From positions 124,001-188,000 of the forward strand of contig JAPKZQ010000015.1 of NCBI GenBank assembly GCA_026393675.1: DNA of 64,000 nucleotides. Reading direction: 5' to 3'. Under the pieces are notes generated by a model, which saw only the letters and a list, made by a program, of their open reading frames with translations, was not told the DNA's origin and ran no database searches. This document shows positions 12,051 to 36,735 of the stretch, piece after piece. Numbering within the stretch: position 1 is the stretch's first letter; each line of letters opens with the position of its first letter. Position numbers and translations under genes: made by a program. Origin of the DNA: Acidobacteriota bacterium (GTDB taxonomy: Bacteria > Acidobacteriota > Vicinamibacteria > Vicinamibacterales > JAKQTR01).

Positions 12051-12130
12051 CTCACCTCCTGTCGGTGTGGCCTCGCACCGAACGGTTCCCTCAGCCATCC
12101 CGATGGGCGGGAGGCCGCGGAGGAGTTACA

Positions 12131-12325
12131 TCAGTAGCCGAAGCGCCAGGTCTCCTGACTTGCGGATCGTCGCGCTCGCATCACGTCTTCCAGCACCCCT
12201 CTGGCGCCGTGACGGGCAGCCTGGTGTCAGGCTGCCTCTGATGCGCGCGCTCCCCGCTTACAGTGGCGGGACCGTGTGGGTTTTGCACCCAACTTCCCTG
12301 GCCGCTCGACCGGAGCACGATTTGT
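12131..12325 (-). promoter_or_regulatory. Cobalamin (B12) riboswitch
   Basis: On the minus strand the leader carries the core B12 motifs in order: AGGGAAGTTGGGTG, CCCGCCACTGTAAGCGGGGA, a long paired arm ending GGTGCTGGAAGACG, and the B12 box AGTCAGGAGACCTGGC at about 12145-12160. It sits about 80 nt before the TonB receptor ATG. High cobalamin should lower expression of the uptake operon. The method of control (translation or termination) is not clear; I see no strong U-tract terminator. Confidence 0.95.
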
Positions 12326-12333
12326 CAGGCGTC

Positions 12334-12342
12334 AGTATAGCA
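12334..12342 (-). promoter_or_regulatory. Extended -10 promoter of the B12 uptake operon
   Basis: TGCTATACT on the minus strand is an extended -10 element (TGn plus TATACT) placed just upstream of the riboswitch. No good -35 box was seen at normal distance, as is usual for extended -10 promoters. Confidence 0.5.
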
Positions 12343-27143: not shown

Positions 27144-27151
27144 GGCCGCGT

Positions 27152-28650
<1,499 letters not shown>

Positions 28651-28712
28651 ACGACCGGAAGCGGGAGCGCGCCGCGAATGCCCGGCGCGTCCCTGGTGGT
28701 CAGGAGTGTGTT

Positions 28713-29108
28713 ATGAACCGGTTGTTGCCGTATCTTCTGGTCGGGGTCGGCGGCTTCCTGGGCGCCAACGCGCGCTACGTGACGGCCAAGTGGGTCGGAA
28801 CGTGGGTCGATGCAGGTTTTCCGCTGGGCACATTCCTGATCAACATGAGCGGATCGTTCCTCCTGGGCCTGCTCGGCGGCCTGCTGGCCGCGCGGCTGGT
28901 TCCCCATGGCGACGACGTGCGTCTGGCGCTCGGCGTCGGATTCCTGGGCGCGTTCACGACGTTTTCGACATTTGAATTCGAGACGCACGCGCTCTTCGAG
29001 GATGGTGTGTGGCTCACCGCGCTCAGCAACATCTTCCTGAGCCTGTTCCTCGGCCTCCTCGCCGTGAGGGTAGGCCTGGTCGTGGCGAAGTCGTGGATGG
29101 TCGGATAA
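28713..29108 (+). CDS. crcB: Fluoride channel CrcB/FluC
   Basis: Fluc channels export fluoride as dual-topology dimers. This 131-residue protein has four membrane helices with the family motifs GGFLGANARY, TFLINMSGSFLLGL and GFLGAFTTFSTFEFET, including the Phe-box residues and the Thr-Thr-Phe-Ser-Thr line. A single full-length subunit implies homodimers. GGAG precedes ATG 28713. It is second in the eno operon, with the DUF190 gene 7 bases downstream. Confidence 0.96.
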   Translation: MNRLLPYLLVGVGGFLGANARYVTAKWVGTWVDAGFPLGTFLINMSGSFLLGLLGGLLAARLVPHGDDVRLALGVGFLGAFTTFSTFEFETHALFEDGVWLTALSNIFLSLFLGLLAVRVGLVVAKSWMVG

Positions 29109-29115
29109 GGGGATC

Positions 29116-29877
29116 ATGAAGCTCGAAGCCGAACAGGTGCTGTGCCGGTTCCATCTTTCCAACTTCGTCCGCCATCGTGACGAGCCGCTGTACCAGTGGA
29201 TTGTCGAGGTGGCCCGGCACGACGGGTTGCAGGGAGCGACCGTCCTCAAGGGCATCATGGGACTCCGGCCAGACGGGTCGATTCTGCAGGAGACCTTGTG
29301 GGGGTTGTCCCAGGAACTCCCGGTGATCGTTGAGGTGGTTGACGGGCCGAAACGCGTGGAAGCGCTGCTCGCACGCGTCGAACCGGTCTTCACCGAGGGC
29401 GAGATCACGCTCGAGCGGGCGCACGTCGTGCTCTATCGCAGCGAGAAGGACCAGAACCAGGGCGTGATTCCAGCGGCGGACGTGATCGCGTCGCAGGACG
29501 ACAGCGCGGCGTGGGAGGTCAAGACGATGAAACTGCCCGAACAAGGCGTCCTGCTCCGGATCTTCATGGGGGAGGCGGACCGTGAGCCCGGACGGGACCG
29601 GCCCCTTTACGAGGCCATCGTGCGGCGCGCGCGTGAAGCACATTTGGCAGGCGCGACGGTGCTCAAGGGGCCTTTGGGCTACGGCAAGAACTCGCGCGTG
29701 CACTCCGCGAAGCTGCTGGAACTATCGACCGATCTGCCCATCGTGATCGAAATCGTCGATGCCGAAGACAAGATCAAGGCGTTCCTGCCGATCGTCGACG
29801 AACTGGTCACCGAGGGCATGGTGACGCTCGAGGCGGTGCGTGTGCTCAAGTACGTCGCCTCACCCAGGCGGGCCTGA
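29116..29877 (+). CDS. Tandem DUF190 protein
   Basis: This 253-residue soluble protein consists of two DUF190 units (about 1-112 and 138-250). Each has a GATVLKG segment, an ELPVIVEVVD or DLPIVIEIVD strand and an (I/M)VTLE(R/A)xxV end. Single-domain DUF190 proteins often sit beside crcB and are PII-like in fold, so a regulatory or accessory role to the channel is likely. The fused double form is less usual. The start is 7 bases after the crcB stop. Confidence 0.88.
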   Translation: MKLEAEQVLCRFHLSNFVRHRDEPLYQWIVEVARHDGLQGATVLKGIMGLRPDGSILQETLWGLSQELPVIVEVVDGPKRVEALLARVEPVFTEGEITLERAHVVLYRSEKDQNQGVIPAADVIASQDDSAAWEVKTMKLPEQGVLLRIFMGEADREPGRDRPLYEAIVRRAREAHLAGATVLKGPLGYGKNSRVHSAKLLELSTDLPIVIEIVDAEDKIKAFLPIVDELVTEGMVTLEAVRVLKYVASPRRA

Positions 29878-29907
29878 GCCGGGCGATCCCGGCGTCCGGC
29901 AGAAACG

Positions 29908-30918
29908 ATGGAACACGCGATGCCTCAGCGCGGCCCGGACGAGTTGCGGGAAGAGCGCTGGCGCTCGATCGGACGCGAGTCATGGATCTATCGCGCCAAT
30001 GGGCCGGATGAACTTCGTGGACGGCATGCCGATCTGCTCCAGTCCGCGTTGGGTTCCGACGACGAACTCCGTTACCTGGTCTACGCACCGATCTTCGACG
30101 GTGTGGACGGTCCCTTCGGCATTCGAGCGACGCCCGCGTCGCACGCCGTGGCCGTCGCGCAGGACCGTCTCGTCATCACCGCCGATGCCCATCGTGAGGG
30201 TGTGCCTGCCGATGTCCGCTCCATCCCGTTCGCGCAGATTCTGTCGGTTGAACTGGGCGCTGCGCTGCTCCTCGGTTGGCTCGTGATCCGCCACGTCGAC
30301 GCCGGTCACGTGACGTCGACGGTCGTGACCTTCAGCACAACCGGCAGCCATCACTTCGAGGCGGTGGTACGTGCGTACAGGGAGCTGACGGCACTTCAGA
30401 TGATCCAGAAGGAGGTCGCCATCCCGCATGCGGACGTGTGGCGCTCGACTCCGCCGTTTCTGCGCAGTGCGGTCGAGCCGCTGCTTCTGGACGACGAGCT
30501 CGTTATCGGAGCAGTCGAGTGGCAAGAATCGTGGCGATCGCGCAAGCATGGATGGTTTACCCTCCGCTCATGTGCGTCCACGCCCGGTCTCCTCCTGCTC
30601 AGTCGTGTGGGTCTCTTGTGGGCGTCCAGCGAGCCTCGCGTACGACCGGACATGCTGAGCTATGGCGTCGATGTGACGTCAATCGATTGGAAGGCGCTCC
30701 GCTCTGCATCGATCGAGCACGCCGCAGCGGGAAGCGTGGCTATGCGCGTCCGGCTAGCGTTGGAACGACAGGGCATTCCCATATGTCTCGAGATCCCGCT
30801 CGACAGCGAGGCGGGCCAGACAGCCGACACCGCGGTCGACCTGGTGGAGAGACTACGGCGATCGGCGAACGCAGGAGCTTACTCAGGAGATTCCGGCGGA
30901 ACGGGCCCGGACGACTGA
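29908..30918 (+). CDS. Unknown protein of the fluoride operon, possible PH-like domain
   Basis: I do not recognise this 336-residue protein. There is no signal peptide. Residues about 55-150 (ELRYLVYAPIFDG...QDRLVITADAHREG...IPFAQILSVELGAALLLGWLVI) look like a bacterial PH-like fold, and the second half (about 185-300) repeats a similar beta pattern with LLLDDELVIGAVEW and TPGLLLLSRVGLLWAS. Bacterial PH-like domains often work at membranes or in stress responses. It lies between the DUF190 gene and the MFS gene with short gaps, so it belongs to the fluoride operon. An alternative ATG is at 29920. Confidence 0.75.
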   Translation: MEHAMPQRGPDELREERWRSIGRESWIYRANGPDELRGRHADLLQSALGSDDELRYLVYAPIFDGVDGPFGIRATPASHAVAVAQDRLVITADAHREGVPADVRSIPFAQILSVELGAALLLGWLVIRHVDAGHVTSTVVTFSTTGSHHFEAVVRAYRELTALQMIQKEVAIPHADVWRSTPPFLRSAVEPLLLDDELVIGAVEWQESWRSRKHGWFTLRSCASTPGLLLLSRVGLLWASSEPRVRPDMLSYGVDVTSIDWKALRSASIEHAAAGSVAMRVRLALERQGIPICLEIPLDSEAGQTADTAVDLVERLRRSANAGAYSGDSGGTGPDD

Positions 30919-30944
30919 AGTCAGGCAACTGTGGAGTGGTTCTC

Positions 30945-32180
30945 GTGACACACATCGATAGACAGACATCGGAACTCACCAGGCAAGACGGCGCGGATGC
31001 TCCCACCGAGCAGGATCACAACGTCGTGGCCTTGGGGTGGGTCGCGTTTTTCGGCGGGTTTGGGCAGGACATGATCCAGCCGATCCTGCCGTTGTTCTAC
31101 TCCTCGGTGCTTGGCCTGAACAAGGAGTTCATCGGGCTCGTCGAGGGCTCGATGATGACGGTCGTCAGCCTGATGAAGATTGCGGCCGGCTATCTCTCCG
31201 ACCTCCTCGGAAAGAGAAAGGCCATTGTCTTCGTTGGTTATGCGCTGTCGGCGGCGGCGCGGTTCTCGCTGGGGCTGGCGGGGTCGGGGGCGGCCGTCCT
31301 TGGTCTGCGGCTCACGGATGGTGTGGGTAAAGGCCTCAAGGACGCCCCACGCGACGCACTGGTGGCCAGTTCGGCAGGCAAGAGGAAGCTGGGGTTCGCC
31401 TTCGGCGTGCAGCGCACCCTGGATACGCTCGGCTCGGTGGCCGGCCCTCTTTTGACCTTCGGGCTGCTGCGCCTGTGGGTCAACCGTCCCGGCAAATACC
31501 AGGCGATATTCTTCGTCGCCGGCGTCGTCGCCGCCATGACGTTGCTCATCATCGGGCTGGTGGTGCGGGAACGGCAAGCGGCCGTGAAGACGCAGCGCAT
31601 CTCGCTCGCCGTGCTCCGAGGGCCGTTCGCCGGCTTCCTCGCGGTGATGCTCCTGTTCACACTGGGCAATTCGTCCGATGCGTTCATCATTCTCCGCGCG
31701 CAGGACGTAGGTGTCGCCATCGTGCTGATCCCGGAGGTCTATGCCCTGTTCAACCTGGTGTCGGCGGCCGCTGCGATCCCGGCAGGCAAGCTTTCTGATC
31801 GGATTGGTCGCCGCCGCGTGATCGCCTGCGGATGGGCCGTGTATGCGATGGCCTACCTGGGCTTTGCCCTGGTTCACAGCCCCTGGATGATGTGGGTGCT
31901 GTATGCCTTCTATGGCCTGTTCTATGCGTTCAGCGAAGGAGCGGCCAAGGCCATGGTCGCCGAACTGGTGCCAGAGGAGAGCCGAGGCACGGCGTATGGA
32001 CTCTACAACGCCGCTGTTGGCGTAATGGCGCTTCCGGCGAGCCTGATCGCGGGCATCCTGTGGCATCGTATTTCACCGGCGGCCCCATTCGCGTTCGGCG
32101 CAGCGCTGGCGGGCCTGGCACTGCTCGGGTTATGGTTCGTGCCGCCGGCATCCGCGATTCGTCACGGCGCCCCGGTATGA
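30945..32180 (+). CDS. MFS transporter, last gene of the fluoride operon
   Basis: This is a 411-residue major facilitator protein with about twelve membrane segments. It has the loop-2 motif GYLSDLLGKRK, GVGKGLKDAPRDAL and the second-half copy GKLSDRIGRRR. I chose the GTG at 30945 with GGAG 8 bases upstream; GTG 30936 is also possible. The substrate is unknown. Its place in the operon suggests export of fluoride or of a toxic by-product, or an unrelated stress role. The last 19 bases overlap the convergent P-loop gene. Confidence 0.85.
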   Translation: MTHIDRQTSELTRQDGADAPTEQDHNVVALGWVAFFGGFGQDMIQPILPLFYSSVLGLNKEFIGLVEGSMMTVVSLMKIAAGYLSDLLGKRKAIVFVGYALSAAARFSLGLAGSGAAVLGLRLTDGVGKGLKDAPRDALVASSAGKRKLGFAFGVQRTLDTLGSVAGPLLTFGLLRLWVNRPGKYQAIFFVAGVVAAMTLLIIGLVVRERQAAVKTQRISLAVLRGPFAGFLAVMLLFTLGNSSDAFIILRAQDVGVAIVLIPEVYALFNLVSAAAAIPAGKLSDRIGRRRVIACGWAVYAMAYLGFALVHSPWMMWVLYAFYGLFYAFSEGAAKAMVAELVPEESRGTAYGLYNAAVGVMALPASLIAGILWHRISPAAPFAFGAALAGLALLGLWFVPPASAIRHGAPV

Positions 32181-32779
32181 GACGAAAGTGATCGCGTAGA
32201 CGATGCGCGGCCTGCATCAGCCAGGCCGTCCTGCCAGGCCACAACAAGGGCCAGGCGAGGCGGGAGTAGACCACGCCCGGCCCGCCACCGCATCGCCACC
32301 GCATTGGCCACCGCCACCGCGCGGCCCGGCACCCCTTCCACCACCTTCACCGCATCGGACAGCCACGACTGCGGAATCGCCGTGCGCGACACGCCGCCGA
32401 CTTTCAGTGCGGCACGTAGAAGCGTGCTGATGTCTCGAGCGCCAAGGGGTTCGACGCGCACGGCCTCCATTCGCCACAACAAGCGTCTCACCGCGCCAAG
32501 GTCAGCCGCCCTCGCGCTTCGCCCGGCTGCCAGCACGATTCCACCCGCCTCCATCACGCGCCGAAGCCTTGCCGCAACCGGCCTGGATACGCGCTCGAAC
32601 GGGTCGGCCACGACCAGTCCCTGGCGCGAGACGGCCGCCACGATCGCGGTCTTGCCGACGCCCGTCGGCCCGAACAGCAACACGCTGCGCCTCGCATCGA
32701 GGAGACTACGGACCCGCGCCACGAGCGCCGCCCGGCCGATCAGAGTGATTGCGGCGACACGGTCGTAGGGATGGTTCAC
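32162..32779 (-). CDS. Small P-loop NTPase linked to the dynamin pair
   Basis: This 205-residue protein has a Walker A motif GPTGVGKT (residues 37-44) after a short AAA-like N-terminus (LIGRAALVARVRSLLDARRSVLLF). Further features are VVADPF, GIVLAAGRS as a likely Walker B or sensor strand, and a helical C-terminal part resembling an AAA lid. It resembles small ATPases of the AAA/ORC class without a recognised partner domain. The GTG start at 32779 overlaps the stop of the upstream dynamin gene (GTGA), so the three minus-strand genes are coupled. Its 3' end overlaps the MFS gene of the opposing operon. Confidence 0.75.
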   Translation of the reverse strand: MNHPYDRVAAITLIGRAALVARVRSLLDARRSVLLFGPTGVGKTAIVAAVSRQGLVVADPFERVSRPVAARLRRVMEAGGIVLAAGRSARAADLGAVRRLLWRMEAVRVEPLGARDISTLLRAALKVGGVSRTAIPQSWLSDAVKVVEGVPGRAVAVANAVAMRWRAGRGLLPPRLALVVAWQDGLADAGRASSTRSLSSHTGAP

Positions 32780-34500
32780 AGCCCCTGCTCCATGTTGTCC
32801 GCCGCGAGCAGGCGTTCGATGTCGCATCGCAACTCGTCGAGATGATCCAGGCGGCCGCGCACCGCCTGCTCCCCGGCAGTCTTGTGCTGACAGGCGCGTT
32901 CGAGCGCCCGGCCCGCTGACTCGACCAGCGACCGCATGCGACTCCGGATTTCGCTTTCCAGGCCGCGGCGGCTCTCCAGCACACGCTCGTTGAGATCGTT
33001 GGCTACCCGCGCGCTGTTGGTGGCGATCAGGCGGCGCACGTACTCCGCAGCACTCGACCTGACACCCGCGATCTCCAGTCGCCGCGGCAGCACCCAATCG
33101 AGTACCCACGCCACGGGACCGGGTCCGGCCAGACGCAAGAGCTCCGCGAAATGGAACCCGCTTGCCGCCCGAAAGCCGCGTGCCTCAATCAGGGCCGCGC
33201 CATCGTCGAACGACTCTCCTACCGACACGGCAACGCGTGCCATGAAGCCGTTGGCGAGATCCGCGAATCGTGCCGTGGCCCGCCGGTAGAGTTCTTCTGC
33301 GTGAGGTTCCACTCGGTGGCCCCAGTCGCGAATCGCCTCGCCAGCCACATCCAGCGCCAGGTCCATCGCTCTCGCGCGAAACCCCGGTCCCCGGCGAAAT
33401 GGTTCGGCAGCAATTCGCTGATCGAGCACGCGCATCACGCCGGGCGTCGAGTCGGCCATGAACGCGTTTCTCGTCTGTGAGAAGGCCGCTGACAACTCCG
33501 CCTGTTCCACGCCAAGCCGGGCGGACAACTCACGCAACGCCTGCTCTGCGCCGGCGATGGTCGAGCGCAGATGGCTCAACCGACGTTCTGAATCAGCGAG
33601 GGGCTTCGTGAGTGCCGTGCGTTGCTCATCGATGTCGCGCAGCAGTCGTCGGCCCAGGCGCGCGGCACCGCGCGCGGCCGCCGCCGCCAACAGGTCGCTG
33701 GACCTGCCGGCCAACGCTCGCAGGCGGTCCTCCAGCTCGTTCCAATCGCGCGGGCACGAGCCCGCCAGCCGCTCGGTGGCACTCACGAGAAGGGGCGGAC
33801 CTATCTCGCGACCGAGCCGGCGTGCGATGACCGACTGCGCAAAGTCAGCCGCTTCCTGCAGATCGCCAGCGGATCCTTTGTCGGCCTTGTTCAACACAAT
33901 CAGCAGCTGGTCGATACGACTTCCCACCTCCTCGACCAGCGCCAACTCGTCGGCCGAGATAGGCGGATCGGCCCCGAGCACCACCAGCGCCGCGTCGATC
34001 TGGGGCGCAAACGCGCGGGTCACCTCGGTGTTCGCTGCGAAGACGGACCCAAGCCCCGGCGTGTCGACCAGGCACAAACCCGTTGCCAACAGCGGACTCG
34101 GGATGCATACCTCAACGACCGCGACACCCTTGGCATTGCCGGGATTGCGAGCCTCGGTGACGTAGTCCAAGATCGACGCCGTGTCGATTGGCTGGATGGT
34201 CCCGTCGAGCAGATGCACGCGCGTCTTGAGCGAGGCGCCATAGCGCAGTACGGTGACGGCCGAGGTCACCGGTACCACGCCCGTCGGCAGCAGCGGCTGT
34301 CCAATCAGGGCGTTGAGCAGCGTGGACTTACCTCGCTTGAACTGGCCCACGCACGCGACGAAGAAACGCCCCTCGGCCAGTCGGTCGGCCAGTGCGGTCG
34401 CCTCTTTGGCAATGGCGTCCGCGCCTGTGTCGCGCGCGGCCTCGGCCATCGCGCGCAACGGCGCCGTTGACCCTTCAGCCGCGGCGTGGTGGTCCGTCAT
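32776..34500 (-). CDS. Dynamin-like GTPase 1
   Basis: This 574-residue bacterial dynamin-like protein has a GTPase domain with G1 GQFKRGKS (52-59), likely G2 Thr in VPVTSAVT, G3 DTPG (146-149) and G4 NKAD (204-207). Long helical stalk regions follow (about 270-420). A hydrophobic segment near 465-495 (LLRLAGPGPVAWVLDWVLP) could be the membrane-binding paddle. Such proteins remodel, fuse or repair membranes. It overlaps the upstream dynamin gene by 4 bases (ATGA), as expected for a pair working as a hetero-oligomer. Confidence 0.9.
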   Translation of the reverse strand: MTDHHAAAEGSTAPLRAMAEAARDTGADAIAKEATALADRLAEGRFFVACVGQFKRGKSTLLNALIGQPLLPTGVVPVTSAVTVLRYGASLKTRVHLLDGTIQPIDTASILDYVTEARNPGNAKGVAVVEVCIPSPLLATGLCLVDTPGLGSVFAANTEVTRAFAPQIDAALVVLGADPPISADELALVEEVGSRIDQLLIVLNKADKGSAGDLQEAADFAQSVIARRLGREIGPPLLVSATERLAGSCPRDWNELEDRLRALAGRSSDLLAAAAARGAARLGRRLLRDIDEQRTALTKPLADSERRLSHLRSTIAGAEQALRELSARLGVEQAELSAAFSQTRNAFMADSTPGVMRVLDQRIAAEPFRRGPGFRARAMDLALDVAGEAIRDWGHRVEPHAEELYRRATARFADLANGFMARVAVSVGESFDDGAALIEARGFRAASGFHFAELLRLAGPGPVAWVLDWVLPRRLEIAGVRSSAAEYVRRLIATNSARVANDLNERVLESRRGLESEIRSRMRSLVESAGRALERACQHKTAGEQAVRGRLDHLDELRCDIERLLAADNMEQGL

Positions 34501-36599
34501 GATACCGGCCTCGCTTCGTCACCTGGCGGCCCGTCGCCACATATGCGATCGAGCGCGGCCAGGTCTTCCCGGATGGCACGGACATCGGTGCCGCTGGAAT
34601 CACCAGAACCGGGCATCGTGGCGCGTGTCCGTTCGATGTATGTCCGCAGGGGTTCGGCGTATTCGTGAAAGCCGTTCTGCACCTCAGCGACAGCGTCCCG
34701 CATCCAACCACGCAGGCCGACCCCAAACGCCGAGAGTGCCGCCGCCAGCGACTGGCCGATCTGGGCATCGAGTTGGCGTTCGATCGCACGGATGCGCAGC
34801 GAGCGGGTGACCGCAGCGAGCCCCGGTACCACGAGCGGCCTCGTCACTTCCGGCAGGACCAGGGCCGGCAACTCGCGCACGCGACTCAGCAACTCCGTGG
34901 CGGGCGGCGCATCCGGACGTCCCAGCGCGTCAGCAGCCTGTGCGAGAGCTGCCGCGAGATCGGCCGCGAAGCGTCCCAACGCGATCCGAAGCCCCTCTGC
35001 CTGGGCGCCCACCGTGTCCTTCGCGGCGCGCCCAAGCGCCGACCTCACGTCCTCCACAGTCAGCCCCGCCCCCTGAGCGCCGTTCACGAAGAGGCCGGCG
35101 GCTTGCCGAACAACGACCGACGCTCCACCCGCCACGGCCGCGGTCGCCTGCTCGCCCATGGGTTTTACATTCGCAGCGAGTGCACCGGCGCGGCGGAGTG
35201 CCGTCTCGGCATCAGCCAGGGACTCGGTGCTGACGAGCACCCGCCCCGCACCACGATCGGCGGTTGCTTGCAGGCTTGCGCGCACCGCATCGCGCAGCAG
35301 GACGATTTTCCGATGGATCGAATGCAGCGCGACCTCCTGGTGCCGCTGGCAGATCGGCGCGATCTCCGCGGCGAACCAGGTGTCGGTCAAGGTGGCATCC
35401 GCCCCGATGGCACTAACCGCGTGCACGGCGACGTCGAGCCCAACCTCAGCCCGAATGTGTTCCGCGATGTATGCGGCCGCGCGTGCACGATCGTCCGAAC
35501 CGAGGAGGTCCGCCTTGCTGAGCAGCACCGATGCCGGGGTACCAGCGTGGACCAGTGCCTGCACGGTCATCACATCGTCCGGCATCAACGTGGACCCGGC
35601 GTCGATGAGCACGATGCCGAGGTCACAGCGCGGCAGGTACGCCAGTGTCTCATCCGCGCCGGCGGTTGCCAGCGACCCCAGGCCAGGCGTGTCGACCAGG
35701 ACGACTCCGTGTTCGAGCCGAGGAGACGGGTAGCGCACGTCGACGCGCGTGACGTGCCGCCGGTTCCCGGGATTCAAGTGTTCGGTCACAAGTTGCGGGA
35801 GCAGATCGAGCGCGGCCGTCACCATCGGCGCATCGGCGAACGACGCGGTCAGGCCAGGTGGTTCGCCGTAGATCAGGCGTGTGGGGACGGCCGTAATCGG
35901 CGTCACGCCCACGGGCAACACGGCGGCGCCGAGGATGCGGTTCAGAAGCGAAGACTTGCCCGAGCTGACTCGTCCGAACACGGCAATCTCGAACGTCGGG
36001 GAAACTAGGCGGTCGACGACCATGGCCAACGTTGGCCGGAACTCGACGAGTCCCCTGGCCGTTATCACGCGTTCGATCGTCCGAAGCGCCTCGGTTTCGC
36101 CGCTGCCCGCCTCGAGCCGCTCAATGCGCATCTCCAGACCGCGGCTGGAATCCTGGGCCAGGTAGTCGTCAAGCCTGTGCAGCACCGTCCGCAGTTCGTC
36201 GACCACCCCATCCACGTCGGCCTGGAGGGCGTCCGGCAGGCCGCCATACCCGCGCATATACTTCGGCCTCAATTCCTCGACCGCGTTGTCGGCAAATGTC
36301 AGAGCCGTACGGATCGCAAAGAGCGCGTCGACCTGCGGCGGTGGGATCGGGATTCCCTGGCTCTCCAGGACGCGCACCAGCCGGCTGCGGATGCGCGCCA
36401 GGTAGTCTGCAGCCAGGCGCGCCTGCACCGGAGTCAGGGCCGTGCAATAGCGGGGGAACGGCGACGATGAACGAGACGCCGACAGGATCGCTTCGATGCT
36501 CGACAGCAGTTTGTCGACGTACTGGCAACTGACCAGCAGGTGACGTTGCTGCGGTTCGTTGAGACCGATCCGGTCCGCGTCGGCAGGCTTTGCCGTCAT
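34497..36599 (-). CDS. Dynamin-like GTPase 2, first gene of a fluoride-riboswitch operon
   Basis: This is a 700-residue dynamin-like protein. An N-terminal helical region (about 1-200) precedes the GTPase domain, which has G1 GRVSSGKSS (209-217), G3 DTPG (303-306) and G4 SKAD (361-364, Ser in place of the usual Asn or Thr). A stalk follows, with an Ala/Val-rich stretch near 485-520 that may contact membrane. It differs from its neighbour in the N-terminal extension, so the two are probably unequal partners. ATG 36599 follows GGGTGAG; an in-frame ATG 12 codons upstream is less likely. The leader holds a fluoride riboswitch with a terminator. Confidence 0.9.
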   Translation of the reverse strand: MTAKPADADRIGLNEPQQRHLLVSCQYVDKLLSSIEAILSASRSSSPFPRYCTALTPVQARLAADYLARIRSRLVRVLESQGIPIPPPQVDALFAIRTALTFADNAVEELRPKYMRGYGGLPDALQADVDGVVDELRTVLHRLDDYLAQDSSRGLEMRIERLEAGSGETEALRTIERVITARGLVEFRPTLAMVVDRLVSPTFEIAVFGRVSSGKSSLLNRILGAAVLPVGVTPITAVPTRLIYGEPPGLTASFADAPMVTAALDLLPQLVTEHLNPGNRRHVTRVDVRYPSPRLEHGVVLVDTPGLGSLATAGADETLAYLPRCDLGIVLIDAGSTLMPDDVMTVQALVHAGTPASVLLSKADLLGSDDRARAAAYIAEHIRAEVGLDVAVHAVSAIGADATLTDTWFAAEIAPICQRHQEVALHSIHRKIVLLRDAVRASLQATADRGAGRVLVSTESLADAETALRRAGALAANVKPMGEQATAAVAGGASVVVRQAAGLFVNGAQGAGLTVEDVRSALGRAAKDTVGAQAEGLRIALGRFAADLAAALAQAADALGRPDAPPATELLSRVRELPALVLPEVTRPLVVPGLAAVTRSLRIRAIERQLDAQIGQSLAAALSAFGVGLRGWMRDAVAEVQNGFHEYAEPLRTYIERTRATMPGSGDSSGTDVRAIREDLAALDRICGDGPPGDEARPVS

Positions 36600-36633
36600 G
36601 CTCACCCGTGGCCGCGGCGCGTAGCCACGACAC

Positions 36634-36670
36634 AAAAAAGAAAGACCCCTACCGGCACTTGCCCAGTAGG
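36634..36670 (-). terminator. Riboswitch-controlled intrinsic terminator
   Basis: On the minus strand CCTACTGG (36670-36663) pairs with CCGGTAGG (36655-36648) around the loop GCAAGTG. The run GGTCTTTCTTTTTT follows. The 5' arm uses the last CCTAC of the fluoride aptamer, so aptamer folding with fluoride and terminator folding exclude each other. Fluoride should therefore turn the operon on. Confidence 0.88.
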
Positions 36671-36720
36671 AGTCATCTGTTCCGTCACCGGAACGCTCGG
36701 AGCGAACTCCAACGCACGAC
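36664..36720 (-). promoter_or_regulatory. Fluoride riboswitch (crcB motif), copy 2, controlling the dynamin operon
   Basis: The minus strand reads GTGCG-TTGGAGTT-CGCTC, then a second stem GTTCC/GGAAC, then AGATGACTCCTAC. It shares GTTGGAGTTC and AGATGACTCCTAC with copy 1 at 27152-27217, and GGAGT/ACTCC can pair as the pseudoknot. The first stem has one mismatch. An overlapping terminator follows and a -10 box lies just upstream, so promoter, aptamer and switch are all present. Confidence 0.87.
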
Positions 36721-36729
36721 CGCAGGCCG

Positions 36730-36735
36730 ATTATA
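36730..36735 (-). promoter_or_regulatory. -10 box of the dynamin operon
   Basis: A perfect TATAAT on the minus strand places the start of transcription near 36723, three bases before the aptamer. No convincing -35 box was found. It lies about 20 bases past the RND gene stop. Confidence 0.6.

Follow-up and report, generated by a model that had tools for sequence, protein, structure and literature searches.

Does a fluoride riboswitch control a pair of bacterial dynamins, and what would such proteins contribute to a fluoride response? This question is raised by a minus-strand operon (36735-32162) in a 64,000-nucleotide stretch of an Acidobacteriota genome (contig JAPKZQ010000015.1), hereafter the window, to which all coordinates refer unless a locus label (L with a number) is given. 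In the initial annotation, the operon was described as a -10 box, a fluoride aptamer and an overlapping terminator, followed by genes for two dynamin-like GTPases, here DynA and DynB, and a P-loop NTPase; fluoride was expected to switch on expression. The anatomy of the leader and its comparative linkage to dynamins support the reading that a fluoride-ON transcriptional riboswitch controls the tandem GTPases, and induction of the operon by fluoride, predicted from the riboswitch class, is well supported by inference. The operon is probably a fluoride-response operon making a dynamin-like membrane machine.

Organization of the dynamin operon

36730..36735, minus strand: -10 box TATAAT, assigned from sequence and retained in the same-genus genome G004 despite diverged DNA upstream of the box
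36660..36725, minus strand: diverged fluoride riboswitch aptamer with P1, pseudoknot GGAGT/ACTCC and P3 GTTCC/GGAAC (lineage model R1, see below, 40.1 bits, E 2.3e-10)
36634..36674, minus strand: intrinsic terminator, hairpin 36674-36644 with a T-rich tract behind it as far as 36634 (folding energy -21.5 kcal/mol, z -4.6)
34497..36599, minus strand: DynA, dynamin-like GTPase of 700 aa (PF00350, 1.8e-21)
32776..34500, minus strand: DynB, dynamin-like GTPase of 574 aa (PF00350, 1.6e-27)
32162..32779, minus strand: P-loop NTPase, AAA_16-like, 205 aa (AAA_16, 8.8e-8), with homologues or analogues in related islands

The proposed gene layout was borne out by the PF00350 and AAA_16 matches and by an exact 4-base overlap between each successive pair (DynA/DynB and DynB/NTPase), and the -10 box was located at 36735-36730. 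DynA starts at ATG 36599 (or GTG 36605), with the same start in the sister species; TTG 36635, listed by the open reading frame tool, falls inside the terminator and was rejected. DynA and DynB are the only Dynamin_N proteins in the genome at E 1e-8, which rules them out as extra copies of a housekeeping dynamin.

Aptamer and terminator of the leader

Both sequence elements named for the aptamer, GTTGGAGTTC and AGATGACTCCTAC, are located within 36660-36725. The site has all five pseudoknot pairs (GGAGU/ACUCC), a P3 and a P1 of three pairs and one mismatch. R1, a covariance model of the lineage, was built from 27 aptamers of the order found with the Rfam model RF01734, with the dynamin-leader site and its counterpart in G004 kept out. 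In the window, it gave the dynamin-leader aptamer 40.1 bits, with the next match at 11.5 bits; the riboswitch of the plus-strand operon described below, a member of the training set, scored 68.1 bits. Across the 3.25-Mb genome, R1 found two sites only, heading the dynamin operon and the plus-strand fluoride operon, which argues that the dynamin-leader aptamer is more than a chance match. The genome's second-best RF01734 match (C12, 15.2 bits) lies inside a coding region and was dropped.

Among 138 distinct related aptamers, pseudoknot pairing reaches 99%, and two-sided changes in P1, the pseudoknot and P3 occupy 198 cells compared to 59.5 in shuffles, in an alignment that was fitted to P1 and P3 and not to the pseudoknot. 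The -10 box, aptamer and terminator are all kept ahead of dynA in G004, where the sister copy of the aptamer (L038:9672-9738) scores 35.3 bits with R1. While the leader is conserved between the two genomes, the DNA farther upstream and the upstream gene differ. As had been proposed, the terminator uses the 3' end of the aptamer: its hairpin arms are GACTCCTACTGG and CCGGTAGGGGTC (36674-36644), and the 5' arm is built from the aptamer's ACTCCTAC, so that the two structures are mutually exclusive.

Linkage of riboswitch and dynamins in other genomes

The initial annotation had named the co-occurrence of riboswitch and dynamins in related genomes as a check, and we found that the linkage recurs in three phyla. 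Among 149 genomes of the order, a DynA-like match was present in 11, an RF01734 match in 19 and both in 8, in each case on one contig; a Dynamin_N protein of any kind, mostly a weak match, occurs in 48. A single-sequence DynA query for related loci returned none. With a DynA alignment as query and one genome per species, 80 loci were obtained, chiefly from Acidobacteriota plus Planctomycetota, and R1 matches nearly all of them, bar a handful. The distance to the riboswitch was counted in the 77 loci in which 300 nt or more precede dynA. A same-strand aptamer lies at most 400 nt upstream of dynA in 61 of these, and at most 165 nt upstream in all but one of the 61, with most distances between 30 and 165 nt. 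The aptamer stands elsewhere in the locus in 14/77, often 1.5-4 kb upstream and before an antiporter, and is missing from two loci; it is thus present somewhere in 75/77. RF01734 itself scored above gathering in 17/17 rechecked loci, and the linkage is therefore independent of R1. Among 396 Acidobacteriota genomes, R1 matches occur in 98, dynamins in 38 and both in 33 (Fisher p 1.6e-17, odds ratio 30, with genomes counted as independent), and the nearest same-strand aptamer is commonly 40-200 bases away from the dynamin protein match.

The linkage extends to other dynamins and gene orders. Shorter single dynamins of the DynB type are also found directly 3' of aptamers in Acidobacteriota and Planctomycetota. 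On a Burkholderia cenocepacia plasmid, an RF01734 aptamer (50.9 bits) is followed by a hypothetical gene and then by a DynA-type dynamin, with DUF190, HAD, pyrophosphatase and MutS genes in the surroundings; a B. multivorans plasmid carries the same gene set plus enolase. A DynB-type dynamin on a plasmid of Lichenicola cladoniae is divergent from RF01734-CrcB-Usp. No aptamer was found near the Anabaena dynamin pair or near the other compared Dynamin_N proteins of the order. On gene-order evidence, the recurrent direct linkage qualifies the dynamins as members of the fluoride regulon.

Some related loci deserve separate mention. The dynamin-bearing fluoride islands L217 and L218 are on plasmids of patient-derived Burkholderia isolates; the 206-aa gene that precedes the Burkholderia dynamin was rejected as a homologue of the window NTPase. 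Islands of DynA, DynB, enolase and aptamer in two bins classed as archaeal and labelled Methanoregula (L098, L118) would reflect gene transfer or mis-binning. In the genome G107, a dynA-NTPase fragment (L043) lies beside genes that by eye resemble those for ArsR, ArsM and Acr3; a fluoride aptamer was not found genome-wide, and the contig of L043 ends just upstream of dynA.

Features of DynA and DynB

Both window proteins contain a Dynamin_N domain with intact G1-G4 motifs (PF00350 above cut-off), and in DynA these motifs are invariant or nearly so across 48 homologues. Profile searches against the PDB identified BDLP, Cj-DLP1/2, IniA and mitofusins as relatives. The AlphaFold models (mean pLDDT 86.8 for DynA and 86.9 for DynB) consist of a G domain and then very long helices of 55-69 residues, with the chain turning at the tip; DynA has an extra N-terminal helical domain of ~190 aa. 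The top Foldseek matches were IniA/BDLP for DynA and BDLP 2j69/IniA 6j72 for DynB (E 1e-15 to 1e-21).

Several observations weigh against a riboswitch-controlled membrane machine. The stock RF01734 model gives the window aptamer 11.6 bits in a genome-wide search, with a gathering cut-off of 34, and a scan of 16 kb did not report it up to E 5. The cut-off is a threshold on the score and does not describe a trait of the structure. The Rfam scoring suggested in the initial annotation hence yields no match above cut-off at this site, owing to a P1 of 3 bp plus a U-U mismatch and to a CCGAGC linker that replaces NNAACC; R1 was built because of this poor score. An overlapping terminator as the general platform of dynamin-linked aptamers is unsupported (11/50), and since many relatives have no obvious terminator, the expression platform varies. 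Over the whole chains, TM-scores of 0.27-0.39 were obtained, a low range that flexible multidomain proteins are expected to give; the fold assignment is therefore based on E-values and on the order of the domains. The hydrophobic stretches at the helix turn (DynA 579-597, DynB 449-480) are modest only, and no transmembrane segment was predicted in either protein. In addition, residues 116-376, which make up the entire GTPase domain, are missing from dynA of the sister species (G004, L038:8301-9614), the gap being clean and in frame, and dynB of this species is broken into two frames; decay or an assembly fault would account for these defects.

For the aptamer, the miss by stock Rfam is overturned by R1, by the pseudoknot, by conservation of the sister copy and by full RF01734 matches upstream of homologous dynamins. 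Judged by sequence comparison, 36660-36725 on the minus strand is a diverged fluoride aptamer.

Proposed function and alternatives

Membrane remodelling or repair, similar to the function of BDLP, IniA or the pair of dynamin-like proteins (DLPs) of Campylobacter, is the likeliest role by analogy, and a role of this kind had also been proposed in the initial annotation. Without fluoride, the nascent leader would fold as the terminator and thereby consume the 3' end of the aptamer. Binding of Mg-fluoride would stabilise the pseudoknotted aptamer and block the terminator, and transcription would then proceed into dynA-dynB-NTPase. Most likely, DynA and DynB act as partners and assemble at the inner membrane, in the manner of B. 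subtilis DynA and of the two Campylobacter DLPs. Their partnership is suggested by the shared operon and by the Campylobacter example, whose authors remark that bacterial DLPs mostly come in pairs (PMC6104087). The two proteins may seal, tether or remodel a membrane harmed by influx of hydrogen fluoride (HF), acidification and exporter load, as the fold, the paired operon and the trunk-tip position suggest. Fluoride crosses the membrane as HF and lowers the cytosolic pH (PMC11139923), and for this reason a role in sealing or remodelling the membrane is plausible. As for the AAA_16-like NTPase, our guess is that it probably assists or regulates assembly.

An unlikely alternative is that fluoride, in the form of metal fluorides, inhibits dynamins as it does other phosphoryl-transfer or P-loop enzymes, and that cells simply make more of the target. 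The same logic is documented for enolase and pyrophosphatase (PMC5533749, PMC11139923), and many members of the regulon are P-loop NTPases or phosphoryl-transfer enzymes that fluoride inhibits (enolase, phosphatases, MutS, DnaB-like, AAA_16). However, the genome contains no constitutive dynamin that would need replacement (DynA and DynB being its sole Dynamin_N proteins at E 1e-8), which renders this explanation less likely, and most sampled genomes have no Dynamin_N protein at all (48/149 have one). It is slightly less probable still that GDP together with AlF4- or MgF3- traps DynA and DynB as a transition-state G-dimer, such that fluoride induces the genes and also sets the membrane-bound state. 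Dynamin-family G domains have been crystallised in transition-like states, mitofusin-1 (5gom, 5yew) being among the fold matches, and the G motifs are invariant, but P-loop GTPases in general are subject to such trapping, which may do no more than poison the enzymes. That fluoride would be both inducer and direct ligand, with GDP-metal-fluoride-locked dynamin assemblies forming a membrane seal against HF entry, appears more doubtful again. Chance residence of generic stress or phage-defence dynamins in fluoride islands, for which one might cite the gene-rich and partly mobile nature of the islands (plasmid and transposase context) and the service of bacterial dynamins in other stresses elsewhere, is highly improbable in view of the riboswitch directly upstream of the dynamin start (61/77) in several phyla and varied gene orders, and of the other dynamins of the order and the Anabaena pair, which have none.

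A fluoride-induced dynamin membrane machine is our preferred explanation. The current picture of fluoride resistance consists of export, pH control and a renewed supply of the enzymes that fluoride inhibits; a conserved riboswitch-driven dynamin pair would add a membrane arm. The pair would also give bacterial dynamins, whose physiological triggers are mostly unknown so far, a defined inducing signal. Both questions lend themselves to direct study, since fluoride can be supplied or left out at will. Many soil bacteria have the pairing in their fluoride-resistance clusters, and bacteria thus appear to meet fluoride with a membrane machine that is not mentioned in the literature searched.

Convergent fluoride operon and related islands

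The dynamin operon meets a second operon (27144-32180, plus strand) tail to tail:

27144..27220, plus strand: fluoride riboswitch (RF01734 35.9 bits, above gathering)
27355..28650, plus strand: enolase (TIGR01060, 1e-201)
28713..29108, plus strand: CrcB/Fluc fluoride channel (PF02537, 2e-27)
29116..29877, plus strand: double-DUF190 protein (PF02641, 3.5e-62)
29908..30918, plus strand: uncharacterised protein of 336 aa (no match in Pfam/NCBIfam; island copy in L041)
30936..32180, plus strand: MFS transporter, start uncertain (PF07690, 4.5e-44), in tail-to-tail overlap with the NTPase gene

This is a canonical, textbook fluoride operon, which had been overlooked in the initial annotation. Proteins of 280-340 aa without a Pfam match recur in fluoride islands (window 29908-30918, L041:13533-14384 and one further cluster alike by eye). 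Elsewhere in the window, a cobalamin riboswitch is located at 12127-12337 on the minus strand (70.9 bits).

Among the 80 DynA loci, DUF190 is present in 54, DynB in 50, enolase in 36, CrcB in 35, an AAA_16-type NTPase (clustered) in 34, a metallophosphatase in 17, a Na+/H+ antiporter in 15, Usp in 13 and MutS in 12; as short contigs are frequent, each count is a minimum. The islands also contain a DnaB-like helicase and membrane subunits of the hydrogenase type, several with their own aptamers. The NTPase was dropped as a universal partner, having few close homologues, though related AAA_16 genes occur as counted above. A second DnaB-like helicase (L082, L096, L100, L112 and others) has its own fluoride aptamer in 6/8 cases and is a possible further regulon member. 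Open reading frames of ~100-125 aa with C/H-rich motifs and no Pfam match lie 3' of dynA or crcB (L082:12613-12978, L089:6180-6554 and 10 more). The P-loop NTPase of G004 forms a fusion protein with a HAD phosphatase (L038:5240-6547), and two more fluoride riboswitches follow the fusion gene, before a metallophosphatase.

Comparison with known systems

Known members of the fluoride regulon comprise CrcB, CLC-F, NhaP-type antiporters, enolase, pyrophosphatase, FHL, MutS, HAD and Usp (PMC11139923, PMC2864571, PMC5533749); a review from 2024 and the paper of 2010 on the motif also name chorismate mutase and list no dynamin among fluoride-riboswitch genes. The plus-strand operon and the related islands are exactly alike this regulon, whereas the dynamin pair and the NTPase are absent from the published gene lists. 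In agreement with the initial annotation, which knew of no dynamin in this regulon, our literature search, whose coverage did not extend to the supplementary gene list of Baker et al. 2012, found no paper in which fluoride riboswitch and dynamin occur together. The riboswitch class and the protein superfamily are known; their combination and its role are unreported in the literature searched.

Fluoride riboswitches whose terminator overlaps the aptamer have been described (PMC2864571, PMC13273304). The window aptamer shares with the crcB motif (RF01734) the pseudoknot between the P1 loop and the 3' end, the P3 stem, GATGACTCCTAC and the overlapping terminator. It differs in its P1 of three pairs and a U-U mismatch, in a linker without AACC and in the control of dynamins.

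The window pair resembles Cj-DLP1/DLP2 (5owv; PMC6104087) in the adjacent dynamin genes, the BDLP-type fold and the relationship of the sequence profiles. It differs in its fluoride riboswitch and the N-terminal helical domain of DynA, and a hetero-assembly of DynA with DynB is a prediction here. IniA (6j72) and BDLP1 (2j69) are the best fold and profile matches of the window dynamins, at a low identity of 14-21%. Stress induction is common to IniA (PMC6715688) and, as predicted here, the window pair, whereas the inducing stress differs.

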